From assembly GCA_900318405.1 (NCBI GenBank), contig ONKP01000015.1, positions 1 to 63,936 of the forward strand: 63,936 bases of DNA, read 5' to 3'. Under the pieces are notes generated by a model. The model made no database searches. It had not been told where the DNA came from and saw only the letters and a list, made by a program, of their open reading frames with translations. The first letter of the stretch is position 1. Each line of letters begins with the position of its first letter. Shown one piece after another: positions 19,601 through 25,700 of this stretch. The DNA is from an uncultured Eubacteriales bacterium. GTDB lineage: Bacteria; Bacillota; Clostridia; Lachnospirales; Lachnospiraceae. Position numbers and translations under genes: made by a program.

Positions 19601-19882
19601 ACAAAGCTGACACCGGAGCTGATCGAGCAGGGCTTTGTTGCCGAAATCATCAGCAAGATCCAGACGATGCGCAAGGAAGCGGGATTTGAGGTTATGGACC
19701 GCATCCGCGTATATGCAGAGGGCAGCGGAAAGATCGAGGAGATTCTCCGTGCCAACGATGCGAGGATCAGAAAGACGGTAATGGCCGATGAGATCATCAC
19801 CGGTGAAACAAAAGGTTACGTAAAGGACTGGAAGATCAATTCTGAGGACGTGACACTTGGCGTCGAAAAAACGGGAGGCTGA
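16664..19882 (+). CDS. ileS: Isoleucyl-tRNA synthetase, long clostridial form
   Basis: Charges tRNA-Ile, with editing of valine. The 1072-residue class I enzyme has the HIGH motif at residues 55-58 (PTANGKPHIGH) and KMSKS at 624-628. The editing domain contains the TTTPWTLPSN segment, and the anticodon-binding helices follow. The sequence resembles the long IleRS of clostridia (GWDTHGLPVELEVEKEIG, FWADMENPYITY). ATG 16664 has a strong GAAGGAGG site. The 80-bp leader shows no T-box sequence, unlike many Firmicute ileS genes. It ends 5 bp before glycogen phosphorylase, an unusual partner. Confidence 0.97.
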   Translation: MYRKADPNQNMLENEEKVSQFWEDHEIFKKSVEEKEGHPVYMFYDGPPTANGKPHIGHVETRVIKDLIPRYRTMKGYQVPRKAGWDTHGLPVELEVEKEIGIEGKDQIEEYGIEPFIKKCKESVWKYKGMWEKFSRKVGFWADMENPYITYKDDYIESEWWALKEIWKKGLLYKGFKVVPYCPSCGTPLSSHEVAQGYKTIKDRTAVVRFKVKGEDVYFLAWTTTPWTLPSNIALCVNPDESYVKVKCVDGYTYYLAEPLLDKVLGPLAEKREDLSDTEPPKAYEILETYKGRDLEYKEYEPLYQCAADAVAKQHKKAFFVYCDDYVTMTDGTGIVHIAPAFGEDDARVGRKYDAPFVQMVDDHGRMKPETGKFAGMRCKPTQHEIKDEGAISADPEVLKDLEERELLFAAPKVEHDYPHCWRCDTPLIYYARESWFIRMTAVKDDLVRNNKEINWVPPTMGEGRFGNWLENIQDWAISRNRYWGTPLPVWTCPDCGKQICIGSRQELAELSGNPDNAHVELHRPYVDAITIKCPDCGGEMHRVPEVIDCWFDSGACPYAELHYPFENKDLFEKQFPASFISEAVDQTRGWFYSLHAEATLLFNRPAFKNVIVMGLVLDKDGNKMSKSKGNAVDPMDALDKFGADAIRWYFYNASAPWLPKKFSEKAVTEYAGRFLGTLWNTYAFWVLYANIDKFDPTKYTLDYDKLSVMDRWLLSRMNTMVRDVDSNMSQYRIPETAKALESFVDDMSNWYVRRSRSRFWAGGMEQDKINAYMTLYTALVTVCKAAAPMVPFMTESIYQNIVRGVDSSAPESIHLCSFPTVDESKIDADLEAKMAQVMRIVVLGRSARNASNIKNRQPLSKMYVRIDEPLDDFYTAIVREELNVGEVIYDSSLKVQYSLKPQLKTVGPKFGKLVGGIRKALAGMNGADAVAELKENGSLVFTVDGQQVSLGREDLLIDIAQTEGFSTQSDGTVTVMLDTKLTPELIEQGFVAEIISKIQTMRKEAGFEVMDRIRVYAEGSGKIEEILRANDARIRKTVMADEIITGETKGYVKDWKINSEDVTLGVEKTGG

Positions 19883-19887
19883 AGCTT

Positions 19888-22398
19888 ATGATGAATCCGC
19901 TGTTTAAAAAGGAGACGTTTAAGAAGGAAGTTCGGGATGAAATCCGCAGACTTTTCCGTACCACGCTGGAAGAGGCGACAGAGCACCAGATCTATCAGGC
20001 TGTATGCTATGTGGTGAAGGATGTGATCATTGACAACTGGATGGCCACACAGCAGGAGATGAAAAAAGACGATCCGAAGATCGTGTACTACATGTCGATG
20101 GAGTTCCTCACGGGACGCTACCTCGGCAACAACCTGCTGGCGCTCAGCGCTTACGGCGAGGTAAAAGACGCCCTCGCCGAGATGGGCATTGATATCGATG
20201 CCATTGAGGATGAGGAGCGTGATCCGGCTCTTGGAAACGGCGGTCTCGGAAGACTTGCCGCCTGCTTCATGGATTCTCTGTCCACCCTGGGCTATGCGGC
20301 CTACGGGTGCGGCATCCGCTATCATTACGGCATGTTCCGTCAGGAGATCCGCGACGGTTATCAGGTGGAAGAGCCTGATAACTGGCTGGCAGACGGCAGC
20401 TATCCGTTCGAGCTGAAACGGCCCGAATACGCCAAGGAGATCAAATTCGGCGGCTACGTAGCCGTCGATTACGATCCGGCGACAGGCAGGAACTATTATC
20501 ATCAGGAGGGATGCCAGACCGTACGGGCCATCCCCTATGATCTGCCGGTTGTCGGCTTTGGCAACAACATGGTGAATACGCTGCGAATCTGGGATGCAGA
20601 GGCGATCAATGATTTTTCCCTTGATTCCTTCGATAAGGGCGATTATCACAAGGCGGTGGAGCAGGAAAATCTGGCGCACACCCTCACAGAGGTTCTCTAT
20701 CCGAACGACAATCATATGGCCGGTAAGGAACTGCGCCTGCGCCAGCAGTATTTCTTCGTATCTGCCAGCGTGCAGACCGCAGTGAAAAAATATCTGAAGC
20801 GGCACGACGATATTCACGGCCTCTATCAGAAGGCCTGCTTCCATATGAATGATACGCATCCGACGCTGACCGTGCCGGAGCTGATGCGTATCCTTCTGGA
20901 CGAGCAGCACCTTGGGTGGGATGAGGCATGGGCACTCACGACCAAATGCTGCGCCTATACGAACCACACGATCATGAGTGAGGCGCTGGAGAAATGGCCG
21001 ATCGAGCTTTTCTCCCGTCTGCTGCCGAGAATCTATCAGATCGTTGAGGAGATCAACCGCCGTTTCTGCAATCAGATCACGGCGAAGTACCCGAACAATG
21101 CACAGGACAAGATCCGCTCGATGGCGATCATCTACGACGGACAGGTACGTATGGCGAACCTCGCGATCGTCGGCGGTTTTTCCGTCAACGGTGTGGCGGA
21201 GCTTCATACGGAGATCCTCGAGAAGAGGGAGCTGCATGATTTTTATGAGCTGTGGCCGGAGAAGTTCAGCAACAAGACGAACGGCATCACGCAGCGGCGT
21301 TTCCTGCTCCACGGTGATCCGCTTCTTGCCAAATGGGTGACGGATCATGTGGGCAGCGAGTGGACGACGGATCTGGACCGCATCAAGGGGCTTGCTGTCT
21401 ATGCGGATGATGAGAAGGCACAGGCGGAGTTCATGAATATCAAGTACCAGAACAAGGTACGCCTCGCCCGCTATATCCTTGCGCATAACGGCATCGAAGT
21501 GGATCCGCGGTCGATCTTTGATGTGCAGGTCAAGCGTCTGCATGAGTACAAGCGGCAGCTGTTGAATATTCTTCACGTGATGTATCTCTACCGCAAGATC
21601 CAGATGCACCCGGATCTGCCCTTCTATCCGAGGACATTTATTTTTGGCGCGAAGGCCAGTGCCGGCTATGAGCGCGCGAAGATGATCATTAAGCTGATCA
21701 ACAACGTGGCGGATGTCATCAATAACGACAAGAGCATCAACGGAAAGCTGAAAGTCGTGTTCATCGAGGACTACAGAGTCAGCAACGCCGAGGGTATTTT
21801 TGCCGCGGCGGATGTATCCGAGCAGATCTCGACGGCTTCGAAGGAAGCTTCCGGCACATCGAACATGAAGTTCATGCTGAACGGTGCGCTGACGCTCGGA
21901 ACGATGGACGGCGCCAACGTAGAGATCGTTCGTGAGGTGGGCGATGAAAATGCGTTTATCTTCGGACTCTCGGCGGATCTTGTCATCGAGTATGAGCGCA
22001 ACGGCGGATATGATCCGATGTGGTATTTCAACAACGACCCGGATATCCGCGACGTCCTGATGCAGCTGATCAACGGCAGATATTCCGGCGGAGACATGCA
22101 GATGTTCCGCGATATCTACAATTCCCTGCTGTACCCGGTCAACGGCGCAAGAGCCGACCAGTATTTCATTCTGGCGGATTTCAAGCCGTACGCAGCCGCG
22201 CAGGAGAGGGTTGAGGCCAAGTACCGCAATGAAGAGGCATGGGCGAAGAGCGCCATCCTCAATGTAGCGCATGCAGGACGGTTCAGCTCTGACCGTACGA
22301 TTCAGGAATACGTCGATGATATCTGGCATCTGGACAAGATGACCGTGCCGGATCCGGCGGAGGAAGAGCGGAAGGCAGTCAGAAAGTCGAAAAAGTAA
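19888..22398 (+). CDS. glgP: Glycogen/maltodextrin phosphorylase
   Basis: PLP-dependent enzyme that releases glucose-1-phosphate from alpha-1,4-glucans. The 836-residue protein has the usual family length and the pyridoxal-phosphate motif EASGTSNMKFMLNGALTLGT with Lys661 as the expected Schiff-base residue. GNGGLGRLAACFMDS and KTNGITQRR are also canonical. The first ATG (19888) follows the ileS stop by 5 bp with GGGAGG at the end of ileS as ribosome-binding site, so the two are probably cotranscribed. A second ATG at 19891 is equally possible. The last 15 residues are a charged tail. A strong terminator follows. Confidence 0.96.
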   Translation: MMNPLFKKETFKKEVRDEIRRLFRTTLEEATEHQIYQAVCYVVKDVIIDNWMATQQEMKKDDPKIVYYMSMEFLTGRYLGNNLLALSAYGEVKDALAEMGIDIDAIEDEERDPALGNGGLGRLAACFMDSLSTLGYAAYGCGIRYHYGMFRQEIRDGYQVEEPDNWLADGSYPFELKRPEYAKEIKFGGYVAVDYDPATGRNYYHQEGCQTVRAIPYDLPVVGFGNNMVNTLRIWDAEAINDFSLDSFDKGDYHKAVEQENLAHTLTEVLYPNDNHMAGKELRLRQQYFFVSASVQTAVKKYLKRHDDIHGLYQKACFHMNDTHPTLTVPELMRILLDEQHLGWDEAWALTTKCCAYTNHTIMSEALEKWPIELFSRLLPRIYQIVEEINRRFCNQITAKYPNNAQDKIRSMAIIYDGQVRMANLAIVGGFSVNGVAELHTEILEKRELHDFYELWPEKFSNKTNGITQRRFLLHGDPLLAKWVTDHVGSEWTTDLDRIKGLAVYADDEKAQAEFMNIKYQNKVRLARYILAHNGIEVDPRSIFDVQVKRLHEYKRQLLNILHVMYLYRKIQMHPDLPFYPRTFIFGAKASAGYERAKMIIKLINNVADVINNDKSINGKLKVVFIEDYRVSNAEGIFAAADVSEQISTASKEASGTSNMKFMLNGALTLGTMDGANVEIVREVGDENAFIFGLSADLVIEYERNGGYDPMWYFNNDPDIRDVLMQLINGRYSGGDMQMFRDIYNSLLYPVNGARADQYFILADFKPYAAAQERVEAKYRNEEAWAKSAILNVAHAGRFSSDRTIQEYVDDIWHLDKMTVPDPAEEERKAVRKSKK

Positions 22399-22452: not shown

Positions 22453-22505
22453 GCGGATGTATGCGCAGGAGAGCATAAAGTCCTTTGCGCATGCATCCGC
22501 GTTTT
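22453..22505 (+). terminator. Terminator after glgP
   Basis: A 15-bp stem with one mismatch (22453-22467 with 22486-22500, 18-nt loop) is followed by GTTTT. It lies 55 bp after glgP. The remaining gap to 22741 has a TATAAT at 22567-22572, a possible -10 for the next gene, without a clear -35. Confidence 0.8.
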
Positions 22506-22740: not shown

Positions 22741-25656
22741 ATGGACAGAGAGGAATACCGTGAGAAGCTGGATCAGCTGACAGACGCGGTCAGTGACAGG
22801 GATTATACCAGAGCCCTGAACATCGCGGATGAGATCGACTGGCGGCGGGTGAAGAGCCTGAACACGCTGAATATGGTAGCCGATATCTACGAGATGAACA
22901 GGGAATATGAGGCGGAAAAGAAGATTCTGCTTCTGGCCTATGAGAAAGCTTCGATCGGAAGGAGTATTCTGTACCGTCTCGTTGAAGTGTGTCTGAAACT
23001 GAATCAGATCGGCGAAGCGGAAAAGTATTTCAAAGAATATTCAAAGACGGCAAAAAATGACAGCTCCCGCTGTGTTCTCCAGTATAAGCTTTATAAGGCG
23101 ACGAAGGCACCGCTCGAGGCGCAGATCGATGTACTTGAGGAGTACCGGGATAAGGAGTATACGGAGCGATGGGCCTATGAGCTTGCGACACTGTATGCCA
23201 AAGCCGGTGACAAGAAGCGCTGCGTAGACACATGTGATGATTTGATTCTCTGGTTTGGGGACGGTAAATACGTTCTGAAAGCCATGAGGCTGAAAATGCG
23301 CTATGCGCAGCTGACACCGGCTCAGGAAAAAAGCTACAGGCGCATGATGGACATGGGCGGCTATGATTCGGCACCCTGTGAAATCGACCGGGTGGAGGCT
23401 GATGCAGAGGACCGCGCAGGGGCGAGACTGTATCATGAGGCCGGACTTACGTCCTCCGGCAGAGAAAAAACAGCGCCTCATGTCGTGGCGTCTGCGGGAC
23501 AGAGACCGGATGAGGAGGAGACTCAGGCTCAGGCTAAAACCCCGGCTCAGGCCAGGACACCGGTTCAGACTAAGAAGTACGGTGACAGGCCGTCAGATGC
23601 CGGCAATACAGCTGACATGATAGCTGAAGATACGGATGAAGATACCGCTGAGAATGCATCAGCAGCTGATGATTTTTCCGACGGCGGAGATGGACAGCCG
23701 GAGAGCAGGGATACAGACACAGCTGAAGTTCCGTCGGACAGCGCATCAGCCGGAAACGGACGTGCTGCGGCAAAATCATCCGGCGGTTTCCGGAACCGTG
23801 TTGTCAGGACAATCAGTGATATCATCGGAGCGGGCAGTGATGACCGCGATGATATGTTTGGTGATATCGATGCCGAATACAGGAGTGTTGACGAGGAAGA
23901 GCCGGCAGAGGAACAGACGGAGAAAGAGGGGACAGAACAGGGACTTCATCTCCGTCAGCTGAAGGATGATCTGCACGATCATACGAAAACGCCTGACACC
24001 GAAGCTGAGGACAGCGACGACGGGGAGACCGATGCGGACAGGACAAAGGTCTTCCGGCGGAACAGCGTTCGGGTTCAGCGGGATGGTTCTCTTGATCTCG
24101 GTGCTTTTCTGAATGATTCGGCAAAGGAAATGGCTTCCGATATCAGTAAGGACGAAGTCGATGAAGAGCCGCTACCTTCAACGGACAGTACGGCTGCGGC
24201 TTCGGCTGTGGATGATACGGTGAAAGCTGGTGGCACTGCAGCTTCAGCAGATGATGCTTCGAAGGCCGATGAGACCGCGGAAGCAGATGACACCGCAGCT
24301 TCGGCAGCGGATGCAATGGCAGAAGCAGATGCTGCTGCGGTTCCAGCTGCGGATGAAACGGCAGAAACTGATCATGCAGCTTCAGCTGACAATGCTGCGG
24401 AGGCCGATGAGACCGCAGAACCAGAGAATGCGACGGAGATGACAGATATGAAAGAAACAGGAGAAGCAGCAGATATGACAGAGACGAATGCCGATGCAGC
24501 TGTGAAGGCGGACGGAGCAGTAGAAATCTCTGCTGATTCATCTGCCGCAGGCAATGGACCGGTTGTCGCGAAGTCGGCAGCGGATGCCCTGCAGGGACTG
24601 AAGGAAGGTGTAGAAGCAGAAAAAGCACAGGCCGAGAAGGAAGAAGCTGTCAGGACTGCTGCATCGGATGATGACACCGATATGAAGGTTGTTCCTGACA
24701 AACCGAAGAAAAAACCTCATTACATCGAGGAGCTGGAGGTTCCGGATCCGGAGCCCACAGAAGAGGAAAAGAAACACCATACACATACCATTTCGCTTGA
24801 TACCATCGGTGAGAATACCGTTCCGATCTCCATTGACAAGATCCTGAGCGAGGAGACACCGGAAGAGCGCAGAATCCGTATCCTGAACAAGGCGAAACCG
24901 ACCAGAATGAGCGAGGAGCAGCGGAAGATATTCACGTATTTTGCCCGCGTTCCCGGCATGGACGGCCAGATCCTGGAGGCTGTGAACAGCGTATATACCC
25001 ATGCGGGAGAGAAAACATCCATGCATGGCAATATCGCCATCATGGGAGCGCGCGGATGCGGCAAGTCAAGGCTGGCGCACGGACTGATCGTTGCCATGTG
25101 CCGTGATCTCGGACTGGAAGCCTGCAAGATGGCGCGTATCAACGGTAAGACGCTGAATAAAAAGGATGCGGCAAAGGTGATTTCGGTCATGGCCGGCGGC
25201 TTCCTGATCATTGAGGATATTACCAATGTCACGGAAGCTACACTGAAGACACTCAACCAGGCAATGGAGTTCCGCACCGACCGTCTCGTTGTCATTATCG
25301 AGGATGAGAAGACGAGAATGCGCGCCTTCCTGAAGTCACATCCGCAGTTTGCGGCCAAATTTGACAAGGTGATTTCCGTTCCGGTGTTCACAAATGATGA
25401 GCTTGTGACGTTTGCACGTACCTATGCGACAGAGAACGGATGCAAGATCGATGATCTCGCGATTCTCGCACTGTATACGATCATCGGAAATATGCAGTCG
25501 GAGGAAGAACCTGCCACGATCTCGGATGTGAAGGAAATCATTGACGGTGCTATCCTTCATGCGACGAAGGGACGCCGCAGACATGGAAGCTATGATGCAG
25601 AGAAGACAGGCAAGTGGATCATCATCCATGAGAAAGATCTGACTGCCAACGGCTAA
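22741..25656 (+). CDS. Large TPR-like / acidic linker / CbbX-SpoVK-like AAA+ protein, function unknown
   Basis: A 971-residue protein in three parts. Residues 1-215 are alpha-helical and look like tetratricopeptide-type repeats. Residues about 215-690 are low complexity, rich in Ala, Asp, Glu and Thr, with a basic patch near 340 (SSGGFRNRVVRTISDI). Residues about 700-960 form an AAA+ ATPase: Walker A GARGCGKS (769-776), a Walker-B-like strand FLIIED (821-826) with the usual DE order reversed, and a CbbX/SpoVK-like stretch (MRAFLKSHPQFAAKF) where the arginine-finger position is Lys873. No membrane segment or signal is visible. It stands alone behind the glgP terminator. I do not know its function; a scaffold or remodelling ATPase with a flexible spacer is a guess. 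Confidence 0.8.
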   Translation: MDREEYREKLDQLTDAVSDRDYTRALNIADEIDWRRVKSLNTLNMVADIYEMNREYEAEKKILLLAYEKASIGRSILYRLVEVCLKLNQIGEAEKYFKEYSKTAKNDSSRCVLQYKLYKATKAPLEAQIDVLEEYRDKEYTERWAYELATLYAKAGDKKRCVDTCDDLILWFGDGKYVLKAMRLKMRYAQLTPAQEKSYRRMMDMGGYDSAPCEIDRVEADAEDRAGARLYHEAGLTSSGREKTAPHVVASAGQRPDEEETQAQAKTPAQARTPVQTKKYGDRPSDAGNTADMIAEDTDEDTAENASAADDFSDGGDGQPESRDTDTAEVPSDSASAGNGRAAAKSSGGFRNRVVRTISDIIGAGSDDRDDMFGDIDAEYRSVDEEEPAEEQTEKEGTEQGLHLRQLKDDLHDHTKTPDTEAEDSDDGETDADRTKVFRRNSVRVQRDGSLDLGAFLNDSAKEMASDISKDEVDEEPLPSTDSTAAASAVDDTVKAGGTAASADDASKADETAEADDTAASAADAMAEADAAAVPAADETAETDHAASADNAAEADETAEPENATEMTDMKETGEAADMTETNADAAVKADGAVEISADSSAAGNGPVVAKSAADALQGLKEGVEAEKAQAEKEEAVRTAASDDDTDMKVVPDKPKKKPHYIEELEVPDPEPTEEEKKHHTHTISLDTIGENTVPISIDKILSEETPEERRIRILNKAKPTRMSEEQRKIFTYFARVPGMDGQILEAVNSVYTHAGEKTSMHGNIAIMGARGCGKSRLAHGLIVAMCRDLGLEACKMARINGKTLNKKDAAKVISVMAGGFLIIEDITNVTEATLKTLNQAMEFRTDRLVVIIEDEKTRMRAFLKSHPQFAAKFDKVISVPVFTNDELVTFARTYATENGCKIDDLAILALYTIIGNMQSEEEPATISDVKEIIDGAILHATKGRRRHGSYDAEKTGKWIIIHEKDLTANG

Positions 25657-25659
25657 CAG

Positions 25660-25700
25660 GATGAGGATCGTGAGAGCGCGAAGCTCCTGCGGTCCTCATC
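25660..25700 (+). terminator. Stem-loop after the TPR/AAA+ gene
   Basis: An 11-bp stem with one G-T pair (25660-25670 with 25690-25700, 19-nt loop) begins 4 bp after the stop and is followed by GCTTTA. The T tail is short. Confidence 0.55.

Follow-up and report, generated by a model that had tools for sequence, protein, structure and literature searches.

The gene described here lies in a 63,936-nucleotide stretch of Lachnospiraceae DNA (the window, meaning the whole stretch that was analyzed) and encodes a protein made up of three parts: a TPR-like helical N-terminal domain, a long acidic spacer and a C-terminal AAA+ domain (Table 1). The initial annotation had described this arrangement, including the acidic arm and the motif residues GARGCGKS, FLIIED and K873, and all of these were found again in the protein.

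Table 1. Coordinates of the features of the gene and its flanks, numbered from the first nucleotide of the window
Feature	Position	Strand	Remark
Whole gene, 971 aa	22741..25656	+	N-domain present in 194/200 family genera
TPR-like helical solenoid, residues 1-205	22741..23355	+	
Acidic low-complexity spacer, residues 206-714	23356..24882	+	
Degenerate AAA+ domain, CbbX/SpoVK/EccA type, residues 715-971	24883..25653	+	
Walker A GARGCGKS, residues 769-776	25045..25068	+	Canonical in window; kept in 67/117 genera
Walker-B position FLIIED, residues 821-826	25201..25218	+	DE in 0/112 genera
Arginine-finger positions A871, K873	25351..25359	+	Placed by alignment to CbbX
C-terminal tail IHEKDLTANG, residues 962-971	25624..25653	+	Family consensus ILxEKDF
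15-bp hairpin 3' of glgP, possible terminator	22453..22500	+	Consensus scan: not flagged
18-bp hairpin, 78% complementary, directly 3' of stop codon, possible terminator	25660..25700	+	Consensus scan: not flagged

The N-terminal domain is an antiparallel helix-pair solenoid that falls within the TPR superfamily by the criterion applied, and the Pfam model TPR_19 matches 29 of 31 members (E<=0.01). The earlier reading of this end as a protein-binding type of solenoid is therefore supported as to its fold, with binding itself being predicted. The C-terminal domain has the AAA+ fold including the lid, with CbbX as its closest structural and profile match and, as first described, no standard Walker B motif or arginine finger. 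A single open reading frame encodes the protein in 200 of 215 loci. At one locus (L069:9142-14614, minus strand, genome G017), the domains are split into an N-domain frame of 809 aa and a C-domain frame of 1011 aa that lie 7 bases apart.

The protein was proposed to belong to no named family and the database searches agree, finding no full-length match to a characterized family in Pfam, NCBIfam, PADLOC or, for the two ends of the protein, the PDB sequences. In Pfam nothing reaches a cut-off. The best NCBIfam model is CbbX (TIGR02880), which scores 35 bits where the cut-off is 459.25, followed by EccA (TIGR03922; 32.9 bits against 466.65, E 2.6e-8) and SpoVK (TIGR02881; E 1.2e-5), the last of which covers part of the AAA+ domain. 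A resemblance to the clamp-loader delta subunit HolA (TIGR01128, E 1.7e-5) was rejected because its 24.4 bits fall short of the cut-off (80) and are exceeded by the CbbX score. Assignment to a defense system was also rejected, since the whole protein has no PADLOC match. Among the open-licence papers found, no title or abstract opening describes the protein. TPR-motif gene clusters have been reported from a gut-restricted group of Lachnospiraceae (PMC3971600) and could not be matched to the gene in the window. The product is a real, unnamed protein with a TPR domain, an acidic arm and an altered AAA+ domain, and it is found family-wide.

The gene is separated from glgP (19888-22398) by 342 bases and from ksgA by 188 bases. 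These gaps, together with hairpins on both sides, indicate that it may well be transcribed alone in the window, as had been suggested. The suggestion does not extend to most relatives, in which the nearest same-strand open reading frame is less than 100 bases away (91 of 120 genera). A consensus scan of the window finds promoter- and terminator-like sites in about the same numbers as in shuffled sequences. Most of glgP is overlaid by an 837-codon antisense frame (19816-22329, minus strand), which is most likely a by-product of codon use.

Distribution and gene neighborhood

The distribution of the protein was determined with profiles of its two end domains in a sample of 200 Lachnospiraceae genomes, one per genus and each at least 90% complete. 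The N-domain profile matches 194 of these genomes; apart from about a dozen, the matching genera listed have a single match each. The layout is no one-off of the window, and the altered residues described below are the rule of the family. In two of the six genomes without an N-domain match (G086 and G143), there are C-domain matches in frames cut off by a contig end, and neither domain is found in four of the 200 genera. The C-domain profile matches 195 genera, a count in which the weaker matches may be true SpoVK/CbbX-type paralogues, as is the one at locus L070. In an earlier set, the C-domain of the window protein used as query matched 36 of 37 genomes of the family, one of them (G026) solely through a SpoVK/CbbX-type paralogue, and none of 24 genomes from other families.

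Outside the family, matches are few and weak. In the other families of the order, 3 of about 161 genomes match (E<=1e-6), all more weakly, with a best value of 4.7e-13. Within the order-level sample, 34 of the 35 same-family genomes listed match; the exception (G671, 99% complete) lacks the N-domain, which is present in three other members of its genus. A phylum-wide sample of 299 genomes gives 22 matches outside the family, none of them better than 1.3e-6, which is the range of generic TPR similarity. Named relatives within Lachnospiraceae include Blautia, Fusicatenibacter, Lacrimispora, Lactonifactor and Oliverpabstia. Retention in 194 of 200 genera suggests that the gene likely does something basic in these organisms. 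This near-universal gene of a dominant gut family has no match in PADLOC, and its product stays below every cut-off in Pfam and NCBIfam.

Residues and neighbors were counted at one locus per genus in 120 genera (the window, 19 and a further 100). Because the 100 loci come mostly from the upper part of the N-domain match list and from positions not close to a contig end, the set contains too few of the most diverged genera.

Genes for glycogen enzymes are the most frequent neighbors. In 55 of the 120 genera, glgB is the closest same-strand gene on the downstream side (median gap 30 bp), glgP adjoins the gene in eight genera and the window, and a GH13 amylase does so in two. The total with a glycogen neighbor is 66 of 120 including the window, whose glgP had been displaced by the antisense frame in a previous count of 65. 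Upstream neighbors include recR in 19 genera, ksgA in 15 and a JetC-type gene in nine (within 150 bp in eight), and downstream neighbors include ksgA in 13 and a Cof-type HAD hydrolase in 10. In 77 of 120 genera, one of these genes (glgB, glgP, GH13, recR, ksgA, Cof-type HAD or JetC) is found no more than 100 bases away on the same strand. In five genomes of the genus of the window (loci L039, L043, L048, L051 and L072), the gene overlaps ksgA by 4 bases. Two further sets of genes recur nearby. A Wadjet type III-like set (JetA3-JetB3-JetC3), often following recR, lies upstream at matching loci in eight to nine genera, with PADLOC labeling one member each at L271:12080-16507, L259:16578-17312 and L064:502-2031; no adjoining JetD was noticed. 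Flagellin and a small flagellar-type gene, both named by eye, occur within six genes in 20 genera without being adjacent.

Catalytic positions, conserved surfaces and the acidic spacer

The residues of the AAA+ domain were compared in the 117 genera, out of 120, in which both domains could be aligned; 112 of these are without a gap at the motifs, and column assignments within the most diverged C-domains are uncertain. The window protein has a canonical Walker A motif (GxxxxGK[ST]), and the 50 of 117 genera in which the P-loop is unrecognizable include two that are alignment gaps. The state of the P-loop changes at least eight times on a quick N-domain tree. A canonical DE is absent from the aligned Walker B site of every homologue counted, and the window protein carries ED there. 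The reversed acidic order noted in the initial annotation is not conserved: position 825 is Glu in 92 of 112 genera, and position 826, that of the catalytic Glu, is K in 44, H in 12, N in 12, E in 11, R in 10 and D in 8, with other residues in the remainder. This position is therefore occupied by K, H, N or R in 78 of 112 genera. A finger Arg is found at position 871 in 12 of 112 genera, at 873 in five and at either in 17. The sensor-2 Arg is missing from all 104 genera without a gap there (S928 in the window protein). The sensor-1 GY signature is replaced by E854 D855 in the window protein and by ED in 70 of 112 genera, and the Asn four residues ahead of the first arginine finger, which is H867 in the window protein, is kept in 48 of 112. 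An intact P-loop, Glu826 and any finger Arg are combined in a single genus of 112 (locus L205).

Conservation follows a different pattern. When the 266 positions of the domain are ranked, catalytic positions fall low (K775 at 89, K873 at 160, D826 at 175 and A871 at 182), and the sole high-ranking position of the P-loop is G769, at 11. The highest ranks are held by A937, Y895, I962, L911, L967 and D966, and the most conserved features also include the lid (Y895, A896 and L911), N806 with K808, and the ILxEKDF tail. The pair N806/K808, in an LNxK loop, would sit at the place of pore loop 1. The conservation of lid, loop and tail together with the low rank of the catalytic positions indicates that selection has kept the fold and some of its surfaces more than the chemistry. 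Judged by its residues, the AAA+ domain is no longer an ordinary ATPase in almost any of the genera counted. With G769 ranking so high and an intact P-loop present in over half of these genera, that of the window among them, ATP binding or slow turnover may persist in some members. A link between loss of the P-loop and the glycogen neighborhood was also considered. The P-loop is intact in 45 genera with a glycogen neighbor and 22 without, and not intact in 24 and 26, respectively; the link was rejected for want of independent support on the N-domain tree.

The acidic spacer is roughly 500 residues long in the window protein and ranges from 143 to 1231 residues across 115 genera, with a median of 486. 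An ungapped motif search of the 115 spacers yields two strong motifs, [ED]KQITGQ[ML]SI[ED]D[IV]LAEWE and [YF][ND]TxNLQxELAxSMxxI[ML], and none in two sets of shuffled spacers, a control that had one third as many starting points. At a weight-matrix threshold passed by 0.1% of shuffles, the two motifs are found in 76 and 67 of 115 genera, and at least one is found in 89; these counts lean upward because the matrices were trained on the sequences in which they were counted, and a strict pattern finds either motif in fewer genera (53 of 115). Both motifs are present in 54 genera, in identical order in all 54. They look like docking helices. The window protein has neither motif at the weight-matrix threshold, and we would guess by eye that ENTVPISIDKILSEETPEER, which immediately precedes its AAA+ domain, could be an eroded motif of the [ED]KQITGQ type. 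Where glgB is near, 53 of 57 genera have motif 2, against 23 of 58 where it is not (Fisher p 7e-10 on raw counts), an association that is not significant once relatedness is allowed for (six independent pairs on supported branches). Some spacers are unusual in length or composition. The spacer of L215 contains a long run of near-identical EYEDEDDSEYDDDE repeats, an expanded spacer brings the protein at L262 to 1640 aa, and the version at L261:5213-12001 (minus strand) reaches 2262 aa, with its C-domain undetected.

Proposed function and comparison with known systems

Across the family, a single protein combines the TPR-like solenoid, the long acidic linker and the CbbX-type AAA+ fold. The explanation that accounts best for this, and to which we give about an even chance, is that the protein is a cytosolic, non-hydrolyzing scaffold or adaptor that evolved from an ancient TPR-AAA+ chaperone related to CbbX, SpoVK and EccA. 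The solenoid would bind a client and the linker would act as a flexible tether, which in many genera would bear as many as two docking helices. No longer a motor, the AAA+ domain would have been retained for assembly or docking by way of its lid, LNxK loop and ILxEKDF tail. In the window protein, with its intact P-loop, nucleotide may still be bound and serve as a structural cofactor or a sensor. The likeliest clients would be alpha-glucan enzymes in lineages with glgB or glgP beside the gene, and the client may differ between lineages. A broader and unlikely form of this proposal would make the protein a family-defining scaffold of Lachnospiraceae, a chaperone turned into a non-enzymatic hub that lost its ATPase and gained an arm with docking motifs, gathering alpha-glucan enzymes and other clients. 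If true, such a hub would assemble alpha-glucan enzymes in a bacterial group that is among the most abundant in the gut.

The frequency of glycogen genes beside the locus raises the possibility of a dedicated chaperone or regulator of GlgB and/or GlgP, by analogy with CbbX and Rubisco or SpoVK and MurG. Narrow clients are typical of the SpoVK-CbbX-EccA clade (PMC10659427), and the presence or absence of a glycogen neighbor, which changes at least 15 times on the N-domain tree, adds to the support from the counts of adjoining genes and from motif 2. Against this, about half of the genera counted have no adjoining glycogen gene, the motif association fades when relatedness is allowed for, and seven genomes without a glgB over the cut-off all keep the N-domain. 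One genome (G226, 95% complete) has no match to glgA, glgB or glgP and keeps both domains; incompleteness alone is an unlikely cause of all three absences, so glycogen is unlikely to be the sole role of the protein. Nearly every genome has both the gene and glgB, and this genome is the one informative case for a loss of the gene together with glgA, glgB and glgP. A dedicated glycogen-enzyme chaperone is thus possible and rather improbable.

A working enzyme is less likely still. The initial annotation had suggested that the AAA+ domain may hydrolyze ATP slowly or need an arginine supplied by a partner, and its reading as a whole is supported in the domain layout and unsupported in this respect. 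A slow ATPase of this kind would fit the canonical Walker A motif of the window protein and the P-loops that remain intact in relatives, and torsin is activated by degenerate AAA+ partners. It is at odds with the drift of the catalytic positions and with the P-loops that can no longer be recognized. The idea of a partner's arginine was rejected on the failure to find a SpoVK/CbbX-type paralogue in the genome of the window itself (91.66% complete), where the best other match is a 626-aa AAA protein at 5.6e-6; overall, a slow or partner-dependent ATPase appears quite improbable, and it may still hold for members with an intact P-loop, the window protein included. Least probable is a part in replication, repair or chromosome organization, for which the position of recR or a JetC-type gene directly upstream would speak. 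Most of the 120 genera have neither neighbor, a shared promoter would explain the position as well as a shared job, and the genera in which the gene lies between recR and the HAD hydrolase have the most decayed AAA+ domains, with no recognizable P-loop in 10 of 10 (one being a gap row).

The proposed scaffold can be compared with several known proteins. Judged by its aligned residues, the window protein is a divergent relative of the CbbX/SpoVK/EccA clade that is without the three sequence marks defining the clade. CbbX, the red-type Rubisco activase, shares its AAA+ fold and differs from it in carrying both finger arginines and the sensor-2 Arg in the alignment, and a DE Walker B motif, all of which the window protein lacks. 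CbbX in turn has neither the TPR domain nor the acidic spacer. SpoVK shares a common AAA+ clade with the window protein (TIGR02881). SpoVK is reported to have a short N-terminal domain and to require Walker A, Walker B and the arginine finger in vivo, the clade is defined by GY in the sensor-1 region, and EccA, of type VII secretion, has N-terminal TPRs followed by the AAA+ domain of the clade (PMC10659427). The layout of EccA thereby resembles that of the window protein, and type VII genes were not seen by eye among the recurrent neighbor clusters. EccA is not known to have a long acidic spacer, and its active site is complete. Acidic bacterial hubs of the PopZ type may offer a parallel, with an acidic disordered middle between binding and assembly parts; unlike the window protein, they are not known to have a TPR or AAA+ domain.

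A related protein comes from a sister family. One genome there (G571) has a frame at L319:642-2903 on the minus strand, open over 754 residues at a contig end, that joins a TPR domain without any spacer to two canonical AAA+ domains of the SpoVK/CbbX type. Its TPR domain is related to the N-domain of the family (hhalign probability 97.1%, E 5.3e-11 over 161 columns; 41% BLASTP identity over 63 residues), and its AAA+ domain is related to that of the family (98.9%, E 3.2e-17). Summed over both AAA+ domains, which keep the full motifs GNPGTGKT, FIDEAY and NPG(I/F)xSR, the scores of the entire protein exceed the SpoVK and CbbX cut-offs of NCBIfam, and an apparently active TPR-AAA+ protein of this kind is thus present in the sister family. 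In the simplest story, whose direction is drawn from this one genome, a chaperone of this type would be the ancestor of the Lachnospiraceae protein, which would have given up hydrolysis and acquired its arm. It would represent a case of an AAA+ machine seemingly turned scaffold, and the apparently active relative in the sister family makes that change testable.
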